Below, piece by piece: positions 8,978 through 54,070 of a stretch of 64,000 nucleotides of DNA (positions are counted from its first letter, which is position 1; every line of letters begins with the position of its first letter). Under the pieces are notes generated by a model. The model did no database searches, was not told where the DNA came from, and saw only the letters and a list, made by a program, of their open reading frames with translations. Position numbers and translations under genes: made by a program. Source of the stretch: Paraburkholderia largidicola (GTDB lineage: Bacteria > Pseudomonadota > Gammaproteobacteria > Burkholderiales > Burkholderiaceae); NCBI RefSeq assembly GCF_013426895.1, contig NZ_AP023174.1:2232001-2296000 (forward strand). The letters run 5' to 3'.

Positions 8978-9102
8978 TGGCATCCGGCGCACGACTGCAA
9001 GCGCGTCGCGTCTGGTGTAATCTCGCGTTTCCGGGATCGGGACATGCCGTTCGGCGCGCCGCCGATCCTTCATACAAACGCGCGCGCCGATGATAGACTT
9101 GC

Positions 9103-9155
9103 GCGCGCCGGAGATGGCATTCTCCTAAACCGCCCTCGTGGCTGATGATGCCTGC
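9103..9155 (+). ncRNA. Fluoride riboswitch (crcB motif RNA)
   Basis: The conserved crcB-motif blocks are present in order and spacing: GGAGATGGCATTCTCC, then TAAACCGCC, then GGCTGATGATGCCTGC. The first block forms the small hairpin, and the ACCGCC and GGCTGATG segments supply the pseudoknot and the closing stem. The motif ends about 80 bases before the crcB start codon, so it can control that gene as a fluoride-responsive ON switch. An open frame running through it from 9138 is not the true protein start. Confidence 0.93.
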
Positions 9156-9236
9156 TTCGCCCGGAACCTGCGGACGTTGCAGCGTCACGCCTCGCCGCAG
9201 CCCGGTTCGTCGATGTTCGGCTTTCCAGGCTTGCTC

Positions 9237-14454: not shown

Positions 14455-14487
14455 CAAAAAAAAGGCGCCATGTTTCCATGGCGCCTT
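14455..14487 (-). terminator. Intrinsic terminator, minus strand
   Basis: An 11-bp perfect stem AAGGCGCCATG / CATGGCGCCTT with loop TTTC. Read on the minus strand it is followed by a run of nine T (complement of 14455-14463). No annotated minus-strand gene lies immediately upstream. Confidence 0.85.
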
Positions 14488-14640
14488 CAAAAAGTTCTAG
14501 CCATTCCGAGGGCCGTGCTAGAACCTGAGAGACGGTACTGAAATACTGCTTGGGAAGCGGCGCCGCAGCGACTGCATCTGCTTGAGACACGCGCGCGATT
14601 ACTGCTCGCTTTCGAAATATAGTTCCATTTTTTATGGTAA
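14455..14640 (-). ncRNA. Candidate small RNA ending at an orphan terminator
   Basis: A perfect terminator lies at the left end, and an AT-rich region with TTGACT and a weak -10 lies at the right end, on the minus strand. A transcript of about 150-190 nt would fit between them. A 77-codon frame overlaps it but runs through the terminator stem and has no ribosome site, so a non-coding RNA is more likely. Promoter match is weak. Confidence 0.35.
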
Positions 14641-20733: not shown

Positions 20734-23700
20734 ATGAACCTGTCGCGCCCCTTCATTCAACGCCCGGTCGCCACCACGCTGCTGGCTATCGGCATTGCGC
20801 TGGCGGGTCTCTTCGCATTCGCGAAGCTGCCCGTCGCGCCCTTGCCGCAGGTCGATTTCCCGACCATCTCGATTCAGGCGAGCCTGCCGGGCGCGAGCCC
20901 GGAGACGGTCGCGACCAGCGTGGCCAGTCCGCTCGAACGGCATCTCGGCACGATCGCCGACGTCACCGAGATGACCTCGTCGAGTTCGGTCGGCTCGGCG
21001 CGCATCACGATGCAGTTCGGCCTGAACCGCAACATCGACGGCGCCGCGCGCGACGTGCAGGCGGCCATCAACGCGGCGCGCGCCGACCTGCCCGCCAGCC
21101 TGCGCTCGAACCCGACATACCACAAGGTCAATCCCGCCGACGCGCCGATCCTGATTCTCGCGCTCACGTCGAAGACGATGACGGCGGGCCAGCTGTACGA
21201 CTCCGCAGCGACCGTGCTGCAGCAGTCGCTGTCGCAGGTGGACGGTGTCGGCGAAGTCGATGTGAGCGGCTCGGCGAACCCGGCCGTGCGTGTCGAACTG
21301 GAGCCGCAGGCGCTGTTTCACTACGGCATCGGTCTCGAAGACGTGCGCGCGGCGCTCGCGTCGGCGAATGCGAACAGCCCGAAAGGCTCGATCGAGTTCG
21401 GCCCGAACCGCGTGCAGCTCTACACGAACGACCAGGCGAAGAAGGCCTCGCAATACAAGGACCTCGTGATCGCGTATCGCGATGGCGCCGCCGTGCATCT
21501 GTCCGATGTCTCTGAAGTCGTCGATTCCGTCGAAGACCTGCGCAACCTCGGCCTGATGAACAACGAGCGCTCGGTGCTGGTGATTCTCTACCGGCAGCCG
21601 GGCGCGAACATCATCGAGACGATCGACCGCGTGAAGGCGATGATCCCGCAGCTGAAGGCGTCCCTGCCCGCTGCTGTCGAAGTCACGCCGACGGCCGACC
21701 GCTCTACGACGATCCGCGCGTCGCTGAAAGACACGCAGTTCACGCTGATGATCGCCGTCGCGCTCGTCGTGATGGTCGTGTTCCTGTTCCTGCGCAACTG
21801 GCGCGCCACGCTGATTCCGAGCGTCGCGGTGCCGATCTCGATCATCGGCACGTTCGCGGCGATGTACCTGCTCGACTTTTCGATCGACAACCTGTCGCTG
21901 ATGGCGCTGACCATCGCGACGGGCTTCGTGGTCGACGATGCGATCGTCGTGCTGGAGAATATCTCGCGGCATATCGAGAACGGCATGCCGCGCATGAAGG
22001 CGGCCTTTGTCGGCGCGCGCGAAGTCGGCTTCACGGTGATGTCGATCAGCATCTCGCTGGTCGCCGTGTTTCTGCCTATCTTGCTGATGGGCGGGATCGT
22101 CGGGCGGCTGTTCCGCGAGTTTGCGCTGACGCTGTCGCTGGCCATCGGTGTCTCGCTGATCGTGTCGCTGACGCTCACGCCGATGATGTGCTCGCGCCTG
22201 CTGTCCGAGCCGCACGAAAAGAAACAGGAAGGCCGTTTCGCGCGCTGGCTGGAGCGCGGCTTCGACTGGATGCAGCGCGGCTACGAGCGCACGCTCGGCT
22301 GGTCGCTGGCGCATCCGCGGCTGATTCTGCTCGTGCTGATCGCGACGATCGGGCTGAACGTGTATCTGTACATCATCGTGCCGAAGGGCTTTTTCCCGCA
22401 GCAGGACACGGGGCGGCTGGTGGGCGGCATACAGGCCGATCAGTCCACGTCGTTCCAGGCGATGAAGGTGAAGTTCTCCGAGATGATGAAGATCGTCCAG
22501 GCGAACCCGGCTGTGGACAGCGTGGTCGGCTTCACGGGCGGACGGCAGACCAATTCGGGCTTCATGTTCGTGTCGCTCAAGTCGAAGAGCGAACGGAAGA
22601 TTTCCGCCGATCAGGTGATCCAGCAGTTGCGCGGGCCGCTGTCGGACGTCGCCGGCGCGCGCACGTTCCTGCAGGCGGTGCAGGACATTCGCGTGGGCGG
22701 CCGGCAGTCGAACGCGCAATATCAGTTCACGCTGCTGTCCGACACCACCGCCGATCTTTATAAATGGGCGCCGATTCTGACGGAAGCGCTGCAAAAGCGC
22801 CCCGAACTCACCGACGTCAACTCCGACCAGCAGCAAGGCGGTCTGGAAGCGATGGTGACGATCGACCGGGCGACGGCGGCGCGTCTGAACATCAAGCCCG
22901 CGCAGATCGACAACACGCTGTATGACGCGTTCGGCCAACGGCAGGTGTCGACCATCTACAACCCGCTGAACCAGTATCACGTCGTGATGGAAGTTGCGCC
23001 GAAATACTGGCAGAGCCCTGACATGCTCAAGCAGGTGTGGGTCAGCACGTCGGGCGGCAGCGCGAGCGGCTCGCAGTCGACCAACGCGACGGCGGGTACG
23101 GTCACCTCGAGCGCGACGTCGAGTGCATCGTCGGCTGGAACGGGCGGCACGACGTCATCGAGCGCCGCCGCCGTCGCAGGCGATGCCGCGCGCAATCTGG
23201 CCAACAACTCGATTGCGGCGAGCGGCAAGTCGAGCGCATCGACGGGCGCGGCCGTGTCGACGTCGAAGGAAACGATGATTCCGCTGTCCGCGATCGCGAG
23301 CTTCGGACCGGGCAGCACCCCGCTCGCGGTGAACCACCAGAGCCAGTTCGTCGCGTCGACGATCTCGTTCAATCTGCCACCTGGCAAGTCGCTGTCGGAA
23401 GCGACGGACATCATCTACCAGACGATGGCTGAGATCGGCATGCCGGCGACGATTCACGGCAGTTTCCAGGGGACGGCGCAGGCATTCCAGCAGTCGATGT
23501 CGGATCAACCGATTTTGATTCTCGCGGCGCTGGCGGCGGTTTATATCGTGCTTGGCATTCTTTACGAGAGCTATATTCATCCGCTGACCATTTTGTCGAC
23601 GTTGCCGTCGGCGGGGGTCGGGGCGTTGCTGGCCCTGCTGCTCTTCAATACGGAGTTCAGCATCATCGCGCTGATTGCGGTCATTTTGCTGATTGGCATC

Positions 23701-24036
23701 GTGAAGAAGAACGCGATCATGATGGTCGATTTTGCGATCGACGCGTCGCGGCAGGGGCTTTCTTCTCGTGATGCGATTGAGCAGGCTTGTCTGCTGCGCT
23801 TCCGGCCGATCATGATGACCACTTGCGCCGCGTTACTCGGCGCGCTGCCGCTCGCGTTTGGGCGCGGTGAAGGGGCGGAGCTGCGCGCTCCACTCGGCCT
23901 CGCTATTGTGGGTGGGCTTATTGTGAGCCAGATGCTCACGCTCTATACCACGCCCGTTGTTTATCTTTATATGGATCGGATTCGGGTTCGGTGGGAGAGA
24001 AGGCGTAATCGAGGGGCTGCGGCTTCAAGTGCGTAA
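20734..24036 (+). CDS. mdtC: RND efflux permease (MdtC/MuxC type) with a low-complexity insertion
   Basis: A 1100-residue RND transporter with the usual helix-4 motif ([17 protein letters not shown]) and a full second half ending in a short Arg/Ala tail. Residues about 770-847 are a Ser/Thr/Ala/Gly-rich linker (for example [15 protein letters not shown]) inserted in the second periplasmic domain. This makes the protein about 50-70 residues longer than typical MdtC. It forms the heterotrimer with MdtB. No outer-membrane factor follows, so the pump must use one encoded elsewhere, possibly the MdtP-like protein at 40837. Repeat element A starts right after the stop codon. Confidence 0.93.
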
Positions 24037-24066
24037 GGGTTGGTTTTTTTGTCTGCGACGCTGGGT

Positions 24067-24143
24067 GGGGTTTTTTGGGGTTTTTTGGGGTTTTTTGGGG
24101 TTTTTTGGGGTTTTTTGGGGTTTTTGGGGTTTTTGGGGGTTTT
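24067..24143 (+). repeat. G4-T5/6 tandem tract
   Basis: Eight successive G-runs (mostly GGGG) separated by five or six T: five perfect TTTTTTGGGG units, then TTTTTGGGG and TTTTTGGGGG. It lies 30 bp after the mdtC stop and directly flanks repeat element A. The tract could form G-quadruplexes on the plus strand and its transcript. Confidence 0.9.
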
Positions 24144-24147
24144 CGCT

Positions 24148-24797
24148 GGCATCCGCGTGATGTTATTGGTTCGCAAGCGTTGCCCCTGTGCGGGGCGGCA
24201 CCTACTTTTCTTTGCCGCCGCAAAGAAAAGTAGGCAAAAGAAAGCGGCTCACACCGCCAGCACGTGTTCCTATCCACGGGCCCCCAACGTCCCCACGCTT
24301 CACACGGCAGTGCCCGGGCTGCTACCCGTTGCCAACGCTTCGAATGAACGCCTCACCCACTTCAAACACCCATACAACGGCAGGCGGCAGCGAATGGTAT
24401 GTGCCGCCCAGGTGGCAAACTGTGTGCAGGTTGTCGCGTCGTAAAGGGTAGTGCTCTTGCACGCTGGGCGCGTGTGCTATCGGTCCGAAGTGAGACGTGT
24501 GGAGCACTCGGGCCGACACACAGTTTGCCACCTGGGCGGCCGTGGACTATCTGGCGCGGCAACCTGTAACGCGGGAGCGTGAAGCGGGTGAGGCGCACGG
24601 AGAGAACGTTGGCAACGGGCGCGGACTGGCGCGTTGCCGTGTGAAGCGTAAGAACCTGTGGGGACCCTCAGGCAAACACTAGAACTGGCGGTGTGAGCCG
24701 CTTTCTTTTGCCTACTTTTCTTTGCGGCGGCAAAGAAAAGTAGGTGCCGCCCCGCACAGGGGCAACGCATGCCAACCAATAACATCACGCGGATGCC
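24148..24797. repeat. Repeat element A (650 bp, 113-bp terminal inverted repeats)
   Basis: Ends GGCATCCGCG and CGCGGATGCC. The outer 113 bp at each end (24148-24260 and 24685-24797) are near-perfect inverted copies. Each contains a palindrome with the 15-bp arm CCTACTTTTCTTTGC and loop CGCC. Nearer the centre, 24403-24426 and 24517-24540 are a perfect 24-bp inverted pair. There is no credible gene: overlapping frames are short, occur on both strands and run through the palindromes. A second copy is at 52318-52969. It lies between the convergent mdtC and 24841 genes. Confidence 0.9.
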
Positions 24798-24840
24798 ACC
24801 GCAAAGGCCAAACCCCAAAACCAAACCCCAAAACCAAACC

Positions 24841-25305
24841 TTAAAGCTTCTGCGCCATCGCGAGATCAAATATCCTGACCCACTGCCGAGCCTCGCGCTC
24901 GGACCCAACCGGTAAGCGCCACTCGGGATGCGCCACGTCCTTCACATCGAGCTTGACCTGCCAGCGCTCCCCATCCCGCACTGGCTGCGCGCCACGAAGA
25001 TCCGCAAAAATATACGAGCCCCGCAAACCGGCGACCTGCACGTCACACAACCGCTTCCCCGCCGCGAGGCGAACCCCACCCCACTCACCTTTGAGTTCAT
25101 GAGTCCAGTCGCCGTCGCGAATATTCGCCGACACTTCCTTATGCCGACGCCACCACCAGGCAAGCGCCGCAACCACCAGCGCGGCAAAGAGAATCGCCAC
25201 ACCCACGGCCACGCCAAGCCCAAAATGCGCGGAGAGCGCATGAAACGCCTGCACGCAGCCATAAATCAACGCAATCAGAGCAAACAGCGCAACGACGATA
25301 GGCAT
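24841..25305 (-). CDS. Hypothetical protein with two N-terminal membrane helices
   Basis: A 154-residue protein. Residues about 2-22 and 29-52 are hydrophobic (VVALFALIALIYGCVQAF and the GVAVGVAILFAALVVAAL segment), followed by a soluble C-terminal domain of about 100 residues (with GDWTHELKGEWGG and RQWVRIFDLAM). The C-terminal part is probably cytoplasmic. I do not recognise the family. Its stop codon is 43 bp from the end of repeat element A. Confidence 0.72.
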   Translation of the reverse strand: MPIVVALFALIALIYGCVQAFHALSAHFGLGVAVGVAILFAALVVAALAWWWRRHKEVSANIRDGDWTHELKGEWGGVRLAAGKRLCDVQVAGLRGSYIFADLRGAQPVRDGERWQVKLDVKDVAHPEWRLPVGSEREARQWVRIFDLAMAQKL

Positions 25306-50862: not shown

Positions 50863-52092
50863 TTACTTCGCGAGCGCCGTTGCGCCGACGACTTCCTCGA
50901 TCGCCTTTTCGAAGCGCGCGAGGCCTTCGTTCATGTCGTCGGCGGGAATGATCAGCGAAGGCGCGAAACGCAACACGTCGGGACCTGCCATCAGCATGAT
51001 CACGCCGTGCTTGCCGGCTGCCGTGACGAAGTCTTTCGCGCGGCCCTTGAAGGCTTCCGTGAGTTCCATGCCGATCAACAGACCCTTGCCGCGCACGTCC
51101 TTGAAGATACCGAAGCGTTCGTTGATCTTCGCGAGCGTTGCCTTGAATTGTTCGCTGCGCGCGCGCACGCCTTCCAGCAGCTTCGGGTCGCTGACGAGAT
51201 CGACCACCTTCAGCGCGATGGCCGTCGCAAGCGGATTGCCGCCGTACGTGGTGCCGTGCACGCCGACCTTGAAGTGCGCGGCGAATTCGTTGGTGGTCAG
51301 CATCGCGCCGATCGGGAAACCGTTGCCGAGCGCCTTGGCGGTGGTCAGGATGTCGGGCGTCACGCCCGTATCCTGGTACGCATAGAAGAAGCCCGTGCGG
51401 CCGACGCCCGTTTGCACTTCGTCGAAAATCAGCAGTGCGCCGTGCTGGTCACAGGCTTCGCGCAGCGCCTTCAGGAACGCGGGATCGGCGGGGATGACGC
51501 CGCCTTCGCCCTGCACCGGCTCGACGATCACCGCGCAGGTTTTCGGGCCGATCGCGGCGCGCGCCGCTTCGATATCGTTGTAAGGCAGGTGCCGGATGCC
51601 GCCGGGCACGGGGCCGAAGCCTTCCGAATACTTCGGCTGTCCGCCGACGCTGACCGTGAAGAACGTGCGACCGTGGAACGACTGGGTGAACGAGACGATT
51701 TCGTCTTTCTGCGCGCCGTGGCGGTCGAAGGCGACGCGGCGCGCGAGCTTCAGTGCCGCTTCGTTGGCTTCCGCGCCCGAGTTCGCGAAGAATGCGCGAT
51801 CGGCGAAGGTCAGCTCTTCGAGGCGTTTGGCGAGACGCAGGACAGGCTCGTTCGTGTAACCGTTACCGATGTGCCACAACCTGGCACCCTGATCGTGCAG
51901 AACCTTCAGGAGTTCGGGATGCCCGTGGCCCAGCGCCGTCACGGCGATGCCGCCTGCGAAGTCAACGTAGTCCTTGCCTTGCGTGTCCCAAACGCGGGAA
52001 CCGGCGCCGCGGTCCGGTACGAAAGACGCTGGCGCGAAGACGGGGACCATGACTTCGTCGAAAGTCTGGCGGGTCACATTCTGGTCGTTCAT
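50863..52092 (-). CDS. astC: Succinylornithine/acetylornithine aminotransferase
   Basis: A 409-residue class III PLP aminotransferase. It has the cofactor motifs [15 protein letters not shown] and [11 protein letters not shown] (Schiff-base Lys). It converts N2-succinylornithine to the semialdehyde. It is the first gene of the astC-aruFG-astD-astB-astE operon. ATG 52092 is preferred ([17 protein letters not shown]); an upstream start at 52116 is possible. The region before it is repeat element B, so the promoter must lie within 52093-52317 or the element. Confidence 0.94.
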
Positions 52093-52317
52093 GTTGGGGC
52101 CTCGGGTTTGGTTCACTTTGACGGTTCTTAGTTTAGGTGACAGTGGGCGGGGCGTCTTGCGTGGAAGCGACGGGTTCTTTTTTTATGTCTGCGACGCTGG
52201 CGGGTTGGGCGGTGGGTTTGTCTGCGACGCTGGTGGGGTTTTGTCGCTTTTTGCTTGCATTTGCGGGGTGGTTGTCGGTGCTGCGCAAGGCTTGTCGGTG
52301 TGGTTTGCCTTTGCGTT
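52093..52317. repeat. G/T-rich left flank of element B
   Basis: Upstream region of astC. It holds two copies of GTCTGCGACGCTGG, a sequence also found beside element A (24051-24064), and a T- and G-rich stretch running up to the element. No gene. Confidence 0.7.
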
Positions 52318-52969
52318 GGCATCCGCGTGATGTTATTTGTTCGCAAGCGTTGCCCCTGTGCGGGGCGGCACCTACTTTTCTTTGCCGCCGCAAAGAAAAG
52401 TAGGCAAAAGAAAGCGGCTCACACCGCCAGCCCATGTTCCTATCCACGGGCCCCCAACGTCCCCACCCTTCACCCGGCAGCGCCCGGATCCGGTGCCCGT
52501 TGCAAACGCCTTGAATGAATACCTCACCCGCTTCGAACACCCATACTTTGGCCAACGGCAGCGAGTGGTATATGCCGCCCAGGTGGCAAACTGTGTGTAG
52601 GTTGTCGCGTCGTAAAGGGTAGCGTTCTTACAGGGTAGGACGCATGCGCGAGCGTCCGGAGTGAGGCGTGTGGAGCACAGGGGGCCGACACACAGTTTGC
52701 CACCTGGGCGGCGGTGGACTGTCTGGCACGGCGTGCTGCAGCAAGGGAGCGTGAAGCGGATGAGGCGCACTGCAAGAGCGCTAGCAACGAGCGTCGGTCA
52801 CGTGGTTGCCGTTTGAAGCATAAGACCCTGTGGGGGCCCTCAGGCAGGAACAAGCACTGGCGGTGTGAGCCGCTTTCTTTTGCCTACTTTTCTTTGCGGC
52901 GGCAAAGAAAAGTAGGTGCCGCCCCGCACAGGGGCGACGCTTGAAGCACGCTAACAAATCGCGGATGCC
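52318..52969. repeat. Repeat element B (652 bp), second copy of element A
   Basis: Same structure as element A: 113-bp terminal inverted repeats (52318-52430 and 52857-52969), each with the CCTACTTTTCTTTGC palindrome, and the same internal 24-bp inverted pair (52574-52597 and 52689-52712). The interior is diverged but collinear with A. No protein gene is supported. It separates the regulator argR from the astC operon. Confidence 0.92.
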
Positions 52970-53017: not shown

Positions 53018-54070
53018 CTACCCCCGCTCAGGCGGCTCAATCATCGCCGCGGGCCGCGGCTCGCTAATAGCCGCATTGGCACCACTGCCATGCTGCTTCT
53101 CGATGAAATTCCTCCGCTCTTCCCGCGGCGTCACGCCAAACTTCTCCCGATACGCATTAGAAAAATGCGCTGCAGAAGAAAACCCACACGCGAGACTAAT
53201 CTGCACAACCGACTTGCTGGTCCGCTGCAACTGCGTCCGCGCCTTCGCAAGGCGCAATCCGAGGTAGTACTTCGATGGCATCGACCCAAGATACTGCCGG
53301 AACAACCGCTCCAGCTGCCGGCGCGAAACGCCAACCAGCCCGGCGATCTCATCGGAAGTCAGCGGATCCTCGATATTCGCTTCCATCAACAGCAAAGCGT
53401 CATTCAAGCGAGGATGCCGCTCGCCCGGCGCCGTCACGAACGGAATCCGCTGACGCTCCTCGCCGGACCGCAAGGTCCCCACGCCCATCGTATCGGCGAT
53501 ACGGTCAGCCAGTTCCGGCCCGTGCTCGCGGCCAATCATGGCCAGCATGAAATCGACCGTCGCCTGCCCGCCCGCGCACGTCGCGCGATCACGATCGATC
53601 TCGAAGATCTGCTGCGTAACGATCGACCGCTCGAACTGCTCGGTGAACTGCTGATACGTCTCCCAGTTCACGCTCACCCGGTAGCCGGACAACTGCCCCG
53701 CCATCGCCAGCCACCACACGCCGTGATGAATGCCCGTCACGAGCGGCGTACGCTGCCCGACACGCGACAAACTCGCCAGAAACAGCCGGTAATCCGCAAA
53801 CTGCTGAAAGCGCTCGCTAACGATAATCAGCCAGTCGCACGAAATCGCATCGCCGAATGCGGCATCGGCGGGCCACTGCGCGCCGCCCGTGAGCGGCACA
53901 GGCCGGCCGTCCCACGAGCACACCTGCCAGCGGTACAGCGCGCGGCCATCGATCTCATTGGCGAGATTCAATGCATCGACGATAGGCCCCACGCCCGACA
54001 TCGAAACGGGGGGCAACGCGACGATCGCGACCTGAGTCGTGCGCGCCGGACTGGACGACGGACGTGGCAT
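53018..54070 (-). CDS. argR: AraC/GlxA-type regulator, ArgR-like
   Basis: A 350-residue regulator. The N-terminal DJ-1/GATase-like domain (about residues 12-190) resembles GlxA-type proteins. The C-terminal AraC helix-turn-helix pair spans about 230-330 (SDEIAGLVGVSRRQLERLFRQYLG split, and VVQISLACGFSSAAHFSNAYREKFG). In Pseudomonas, the AraC-type ArgR has this architecture and activates aot and aru genes in response to arginine. It sits between the transport genes and the catabolic operon, on the same strand, supporting that role. It lies 25 bp after the ATPase gene, so it is part of the transport operon. Confidence 0.88.
   Translation of the reverse strand: MPRPSSSPARTTQVAIVALPPVSMSGVGPIVDALNLANEIDGRALYRWQVCSWDGRPVPLTGGAQWPADAAFGDAISCDWLIIVSERFQQFADYRLFLASLSRVGQRTPLVTGIHHGVWWLAMAGQLSGYRVSVNWETYQQFTEQFERSIVTQQIFEIDRDRATCAGGQATVDFMLAMIGREHGPELADRIADTMGVGTLRSGEERQRIPFVTAPGERHPRLNDALLLMEANIEDPLTSDEIAGLVGVSRRQLERLFRQYLGSMPSKYYLGLRLAKARTQLQRTSKSVVQISLACGFSSAAHFSNAYREKFGVTPREERRNFIEKQHGSGANAAISEPRPAAMIEPPERG

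Follow-up and report, generated by a model that had tools for sequence, protein, structure and literature searches.

The genome of Paraburkholderia largidicola carries a dispersed, non-coding 650-bp palindrome whose copies keep stable chromosomal sites while their cores are unrelated and often flipped between orthologous sites, and beside which the third codon positions of neighbouring genes are shifted along a gradient that declines with distance on both sides. On balance, we consider this palindrome to be probably a recurrent break point, at which resection of the broken ends would expose single strands to mutation and the break would be repaired from other copies by ectopic gene conversion. 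As far as can be read from sequence, its main visible activity is an apparent exchange between copies together with mutation of the neighbouring genes.

Architecture, copy number and placement of the palindrome

The element was studied in a window of 64,000 nucleotides (64 kb), part of C1 in a genome of 9.47 Mb and five contigs. Copy A, at 24148..24797 (+), is an imperfect palindrome across its entire length, matching its own reverse complement at 73% end to end. A first-pass annotation had described a 650-bp unit with 113-bp terminal inverted repeats, each containing a hairpin, and a 24-bp inner inverted pair, and this architecture is borne out: the left and right terminal repeats (24148..24260 and 24685..24797, both +) are encompassed by longer arms of 149 nt that are 89% complementary (24112-24260 and 24685-24833), each repeat contains a perfect hairpin with a 15-bp stem (the left one, CCTACTTTTCTTTGC-CGCC-GCAAAGAAAAGTAGG, at 24201..24234, and the right one, with the loop GGCG, at 24711..24744), as found by inverted-repeat and pattern searches, and the inner pair lies at 24403..24426 and 24517..24540 (+; 24 nt, 100%). 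The motif GTAG is present at the element hairpin. The same annotation had held that one strand could fold into a large structure, which agrees with the DNA fold and understated the palindromy of the unit: the 650 nt fold at -283 kcal/mol, against an average of -132.7 in 20 shuffles (z -20.6, 0 of 20 as low). In an alignment of 29 copies, which were drawn from the best matches to copy A with L025 excluded and so form a favourable sample for invariance, the terminal hairpin stretch is invariant (entropy 0.0, columns 51-100) and the remaining positions vary. Palindromy is conserved in this alignment, with 98% of the cells paired compared to 37-46% in slid controls, and both sides had changed in 15 of 204 pairs compared to 5-11 in slid controls, which is weak evidence of compensatory change.

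The claim that the unit encodes no protein also stands, as the two open reading frames across its ends have no Pfam match; with copies that differ by small indels, a coding element was rejected. No Rfam family falls on the element at the gathering score, which two other families pass elsewhere in the window, a fluoride riboswitch at 9101-9161 (+) and the Burkholderia sRNA ncS54 at 14457-14535 (-). A phage origin was likewise rejected, with 0 matches in 50,697 phage records.

Copy B, recovered through the repeat families D2-D5, lies 28.17 kb from copy A at 52318..52969 (+), with its hairpins at 52371..52404 and 52883..52916, and a search for the hairpin pattern with up to three mismatches finds it 4 times in the window, compared to 0 expected from 100 shuffles. 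The element is far from being confined to these two copies. Genome-wide, 340 exact terminal hairpins were counted (control pattern 0), which at two hairpins per copy gives an estimate of roughly 170 copies, and the exact inner pair occurs 121 times (control 0). When the whole element was searched against its own genome, the best 40 of 229 candidates were scored, and all of them were full or nearly full length at 86-100% identity, the 39 places other than copy A at 86-90%; at those 39 the reverse complement of copy A also matches, at 71-77% and over full or nearly full length. Copies are spread over C1, C2 and C3. Among 398 genomes of the family, 20 have the hairpin, with 1 to 354 hairpins each, and all 20 belong to one and the same genus out of 25. 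Furthermore, six Paraburkholderia plasmid records contain full-length places at 85-89% identity, at least 39-40 places each, and records of Caballeronia and Burkholderia have about one tenth to one quarter of the element in common.

Copies are placed at the 3′ ends of genes. Gene calls came from a six-frame caller applied only to the element flanks, and 19 of the 89 unique copies in the own genome are unclassified for want of a gene call on one side; the 70 classified copies comprise 51 between convergent genes, 19 between tandem genes and 0 between divergent genes, compared to a background of 64 convergent and 63 divergent among 379 adjacent gene pairs in stretches of the same genome. An AcrB-family RND efflux gene, identified by Pfam (20734..24036, +), has its 3′ end at the left of copy A, which on its right faces the 3′ end of a small gene (24841..25305, -), and copy B stands between the 5′ end of a class-III aminotransferase gene (50863..52116, -; PF00202) and the 3′ end of an AraC-type regulator gene (53018..54070, -; PF12833). 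In the one of four annotated plasmid records that had features at the locus, the copy likewise lies between two gene 3′ ends. With its position at gene 3′ ends and a hairpin plus a T-rich tract, the element is located as terminators are. At one site, SITE2, relatives without the element have in its place, as read by eye, a hairpin with a T run (G041, G020 and G004) or a hairpin without a T run (G044 and G031); since an ordinary intrinsic terminator occupies this position in relatives, the element may act as a two-way terminator.

A gradient of mutation in the flanking genes

The DNA next to the copies is strongly skewed. Over 50 bp, left flanks are 78% G+T and right flanks are the mirror of this (48 flank pairs), compared to near 50% G+T in 13 convergent gaps without a copy, and within 25 bp the intergenic flanks reach A 0.02 and C 0.17. 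Copy A has a G/T-rich left flank at 24040..24147 (+), this being the skewed strand, and an A/C-rich right flank at 24798..24840 (+) that mirrors it. The skew continues into the genes. On the strand that runs into the element, the third codon positions of 3′-facing genes change from T 0.32 and C 0.12 within 100 bp to T 0.11 and C 0.41 at 1.2 kb (133 sides), while 164 control genes more than 5 kb from any copy are flat (T 0.10-0.11, C 0.39-0.45) and have no gradient at their 3′ ends. Within 500 bp, the ratio T/(C+T) in 3′-facing genes is 0.566 (n=132) compared to 0.207 in controls (n=143, p = 5e-45), and it is higher near the element than far from it in 67 of 68 paired genes. Divergence follows the same course, since after removal of poorly aligned positions the own genome (G000) and that of a sister species (G052) differ by 0.138 within 100 bp of copies and by about 0.06 beyond 1 kb. 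The rate of T>C per T is also raised near old copies, 0.033 compared to 0.020. Beyond the own species, 20 loci were taken from five further genomes, and after exclusion of 6 with a single exact hairpin (leaving 14 copies and 27 sides in all five) the gradient recurs in four of the five, the fifth, G066, having no gradient over its 2 sides only.

The alternative that survives best is transcription. Flanking genes run into the element, where polymerase would stall or terminate and R-loops would expose the non-template strand to deamination from C to T, the exchange of cores being a separate process. This agrees with the 73% of classified copies that lie between convergent genes and with the terminator found at the SITE2 position in relatives. 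It also agrees with the 16 copies that have one 3′-facing and one 5′-facing gene, at which the 5′ side is the weaker (0.293 vs 0.505) and is lower in 15 of 16. However, transcription predicts that the sign should be reversed on 5′-facing sides, and it is not: on the same into-element strand, 5′-facing genes have a T/(C+T) of 0.33 (n=18, leaving out the 5′-facing side that adjoins an insertion sequence at L034) vs 0.175 in controls (n=143, p = 1e-8), and 4 of 4 such genes are higher in G000 than in the relative G004, one of them marginally (0.276 vs 0.263). As the same strand is shifted whichever way the gene runs, it is the element, and not transcription, that determines which strand is affected. 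Control genes have no gradient at their 3′ ends either, and we regard transcription as an unlikely cause.

Stable sites and apparently exchanged cores

Comparison of orthologous chromosome stretches in G000, G052 and G041 indicates that the sites are mostly common to the species and the contents are not. Of 16 sites in G000, 14 could be compared with G052 and 10 with G041, and the element is present at all 14 of the former and at 9 of the latter, with flanks that are 90-96% identical. The cores at the same sites in G000 and G052 are no more alike than random pairs (identity 0.756 vs 0.752, P = 0.20, 13 pairs), the per-site ranks of similarity are scattered from best to worst, and the core lies in the other orientation at 5 of 13 sites relative to G052 and at 4 of 8 relative to G041. 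Within the own genome, the mean identity in the regional set of copies is 0.753. Conversely, cores at non-orthologous sites can be 98% and 96% identical in tracts with variable ends; the G000 copies at 478658 and 508349, for example, have cores that are 98% identical with breakpoints within the ends, and some other pairs of copies have part of the core in common. Fixed sites with unrelated and often flipped cores point to ectopic gene conversion, by which we infer that the dissimilar same-site cores arose. Flipped cores could be errors of assembly in repeats, and fast evolution of the element could mimic a loss of orthology; the 98% tracts at non-orthologous sites argue against the latter.

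Gains and losses are observed as well. SITE1 is occupied in G052, G042 and G020 and unoccupied in G000, G041, G004, G044 and G031, with G019 and G074 assigned to neither the occupied nor the empty class in the SITE1 and SITE2 comparison, and SITE2 holds the element in G000 and G052, the G042 locus also carrying one. At G000 620162 only an 83-bp remnant is left, joined at short GCCCC repeats, while the G052 site holds the element, a structure consistent with deletion of a palindrome. At the copy A site, G004 has a short palindrome of the outer ends, so that this locus may be either a remnant or a precursor. Solo mini-palindromes that consist of the outer ends alone also adjoin full copies, arranged as tandem repeats with a period of 104 bp, at G000:C2:1983530-1983797 and 1998810-1999056.

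A MITE is a short, non-coding element with terminal inverted repeats and a high copy number. The palindrome resembles one in being non-coding and in having long terminal inverted repeats and many copies on C1, C2 and C3, and its sites are polymorphic, with SITE1 occupied in G052 and not in G000 or G041, and SITE2 empty in G041. A non-autonomous transposon of this kind would jump by means of a transposase acting in trans and would persist at gene 3′ ends either through the harm done by insertions elsewhere or through a role as terminator. Against this, no target-site duplication was seen at the two unoccupied alleles read by eye, the intergenic DNA being replaced there in flanks that evolve fast; neither a transposase with matching ends nor a parent transposon was found in a non-exhaustive search, which covered Y1_Tnp genes genome-wide; the sites are mostly common to the species while their contents differ; and the mutation gradient is left unexplained. 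We therefore consider a MITE-like transposon quite unlikely. The first-pass annotation, which had likened the unit to a MITE or REP and proposed that copies, empty sites and a transposase with matching ends be sought, was right that it is a dispersed, structured, non-coding repeat, longer than REPs, and indeed many copies and sites empty in relatives were found; of the outcomes that it had named as speaking against it (two copies alone with no empty sites, a coding gene or an Rfam family across the unit), none was observed. MITE-like mobility as its main activity found no support.

The Y1_Tnp search gave two matches genome-wide, one above the cut-off, and neither has element-like ends in its 1.5-kb flanks. 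Both genes, at G000:C1:3362839-3363129 and C3:2144291-2144515, are RAYT-like, with an HUH motif that is presumably degenerate, and mobilisation by a RAYT was rejected on the lack of matching ends in those flanks. Some copies are 1.1 kb longer, and the idea that these are the autonomous parent was rejected, the extra DNA being a passenger in the hairpin: in three copies an insertion sequence, which we take to be IS30-like, lies inside the terminal hairpin region (L031 1220-2318, L032 1726-2824 and L033 1705-2803), the inserts of L032 and L033 share 99.4% and 99.9% identity with the L031 insert, and the transposase of 341 aa has HTH_38 and rve domains. Another insertion sequence with a transposase-like open reading frame splits the hairpin of L034 (G000:C1, at about 84 kb), and in G052 the hairpins of copies near 579447 and 603159 are interrupted by an insertion sequence with a common TGTACAGACTGGAGACATC end. 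With several insertion sequences interrupting it, the hairpin looks like a hot spot for their insertion.

Occupied and empty loci, a proposed exposure of strands, and related systems

Relatives in which individual sites are empty serve as natural experiments. One G004 contig has a single detectable copy, and at its copy-free sites the T/(C+T) of 3′-facing genes is lower than in their G000 counterparts in 12 of 12 cases (mean 0.185 vs 0.473); the two genes at 620162, where the G004 copy is present, were kept outside the 12, and the genes beside this sole detectable copy are intermediate (0.39 and 0.32). Counted from G004 to G000, 361 substitutions are C>T and 54 T>C, 146 are A>G and 74 G>A, and 193 are C>G and 88 G>C, and in 84 control genes the opposite directions are in balance (872 C>T, 782 T>C). 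At copy A, the last 600 nt of the RND gene have a T/(C+T) of 0.526 in the own genome, and the end of this gene ranges from 0.47 to 0.66 in 5 of 5 occupied genomes (a sixth occupied locus being too short and excluded) compared to 0.14-0.17 in 3 of 3 unoccupied ones. The small gene on the right, at 0.56 on the into-element strand in the own genome, ranges from 0.40 to 0.73 in 6 occupied genomes and is 0.24, 0.45 and 0.22 in 3 unoccupied ones, where the 0.45 of unoccupied G044 reaches the level of some occupied genomes.

Right of the SITE1 copy in G052, a comparison with G000 counts 28 C>T and 5 T>C, 21 A>G and 7 G>A, and 17 C>G and 4 G>C changes, with a weaker trend for the same pairs on the left side (20 vs 12, 30 vs 16 and 14 vs 12), while the two unoccupied genomes G000 and G041 differ on the right side by balanced numbers of these changes (3 vs 4, 9 vs 7 and 9 vs 7). 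The 5′-facing gene at SITE1 stands at 0.256 in G052, 0.169 in G042 and 0.125 in G020 compared to 0.13-0.18 in five unoccupied relatives, so that a shift is present in G052 and unclear in G042 and G020. The left gene at SITE2 shows hardly any shift in G000 (0.28) and G052 (0.24) compared to 0.23-0.27 in five unoccupied relatives, and is shifted in G042 (0.485). The copies at SITE1 and SITE2, with their mixed shifts, are presumably young.

At any given locus, replication forks arrive mainly from one side. If forks stalled at the hairpin, the lagging-strand template would be left single-stranded on the approach side and would mutate, and a fork from either side would expose the strand that runs into the element, which agrees with the observed strand; the left and right shifts per copy are also correlated weakly (r = 0.19, 50 copies). 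Yet one side should then dominate according to replichore, and among 50 convergent copies 46 have shifts to the left and to the right and 4 have a shift on a single side; neither any quarter of C1 or C2 (with small numbers per quarter) nor any other region of a replicon is one-sided. This two-sidedness argues against fork direction, which we hold to be very unlikely, and fits what resection of both ends predicts. A bias of selection or insertion with no extra mutation, in which the element favours gene ends poor in C, or selection for RecA pairing or termination maintains the G/T-rich flanks, would suit the extreme G/T-richness of the intergenic flanks but is hardly credible, given that the same genes are lower where G004 lacks the element (as is the RND gene at copy A), that synonymous third positions about 1 kb away are changed, and that divergence itself is elevated near copies.

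From the invariant hairpins, the flipped or unrelated cores, the near-identical tracts and the two-sided gradient, we infer the following order of events. A hairpin or cruciform at the palindrome would lead to a two-ended DNA break, presumably at the hairpins; a RecBCD-type enzyme, of which RecB is present in the genome, would resect the ends and leave 3′ single strands exposed, left of the element the top one and right of it the bottom one; damage to these 3′-ended strands would give C-to-T and A-to-G changes and thereby the strand skew; and repair against another copy would replace or flip the core, in the pattern that is seen between genomes. The weak left-right correlation and the weaker 5′ side are not predicted by simple resection, and together with the raised T>C and the weak shift at SITE2 they lie outside the model; young age, or stronger selection against codons ending in A, are guesses at their cause.

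SbcD is a partner in the classical palindrome nuclease. It falls below the cut-off in G000 (26.5 vs 77.65 bits), as in G041 and G052, and exceeds it in 9 of 77 genomes of the genus, the carriers G017 and G042 among them, and SbcCD was therefore rejected as the general breaker; as a guess, its loss may let long palindromes persist.

If the break model is true, the element would be a natural, genome-wide bacterial counterpart of break-induced, strand-coordinated mutagenesis, in which the length of resection, the strand and the spectrum of changes can be read without experiments from the synonymous sites beside copies. The persistence of palindromes, the frequency of ectopic conversion and the influence of repeats on the evolution of flanking genes would become testable, and what is measured as codon usage or divergence beside such repeats may be a record of past repair and not of selection on the gene. 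A more tentative extension, possible though rather doubtful, is that of a self-breaking network, in which the roughly 170 copies survive by templating each other's repair and draw on a common stock of cores while their addresses stay fixed, each address being a permanent station of hypermutation that rewrites the last kilobase of the flanking genes on a predictable strand; such a network would be a novel type of parasite or resident of the genome.

Several known systems invite comparison. Clusters of the kataegis type arise at breaks, with changes of C on one strand to the left and on the other strand to the right, and the flanks of the element are likewise changed at C on opposite strands on either side; unlike such clusters, its footprint is accumulated, genome-wide and tied to fixed repeat sites, is not a burst, and comes without an identified deaminase. 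The element also resembles REP, BIME and REPIN sequences in being intergenic, palindromic and present in many copies at gene 3′ ends and in convergent gaps, with GTAG at its hairpin as in GTAG-tagged REPs, and gene conversion was reportedly proposed for the evolution of REPs already by Higgins in 1988. REPs are reported to be placed mostly between unidirectional and convergent ORFs (PMC3733652), and REP units are 20-60 bp, with REPINs made of two REPs (PMC3116915). In contrast to these 20-60 bp units and to the doublet of about 100 bp, the element has 650 bp and is palindromic as a whole, and it differs further in its orthologous sites with unrelated cores and in flanking genes with a kilobase gradient of mutation. 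Inverted repeats engineered into yeast are reported to break and to mutate their flanks via resected single strands (PMC3681665). The element resembles these fragile palindromes in the rise of mutation on both flanks, which declines with distance and may likewise come from break resection; it differs in being natural and bacterial, the yeast loci being engineered and Sae2-dependent, and processing of the Mre11/Rad50 (SbcCD) type finds no counterpart in G000, where SbcD is below the cut-off. The literature searched, which lay mostly outside subscription journals, yielded no description of this element and none of a comparable bacterial gradient. We class it among the dispersed bacterial palindromes, distinguished by its mutational footprint and typical neither of MITEs nor of REPs.

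Some features of the flanks may be recorded here. The Chi-like motif GCTGGTGG was observed 20 times compared to 13.7 in shuffles, an excess that is not convincing, and it was set aside. Adjoining copy A at 24070-24140 is a telomere-like tract of GGGGTTTTTT repeats, a possible G-quadruplex former. An outer unit that starts with TCTGCGACG, often extends to GCTGGGTGG and is represented in the left flank of copy A by GTCTGCGACGCTGGGTGG at 24051-24068, presumably resembles the Chi motif of E. coli; it occurs within 250 bp in 60 of 156 flanks and in all cases points toward the element (0 reversed).
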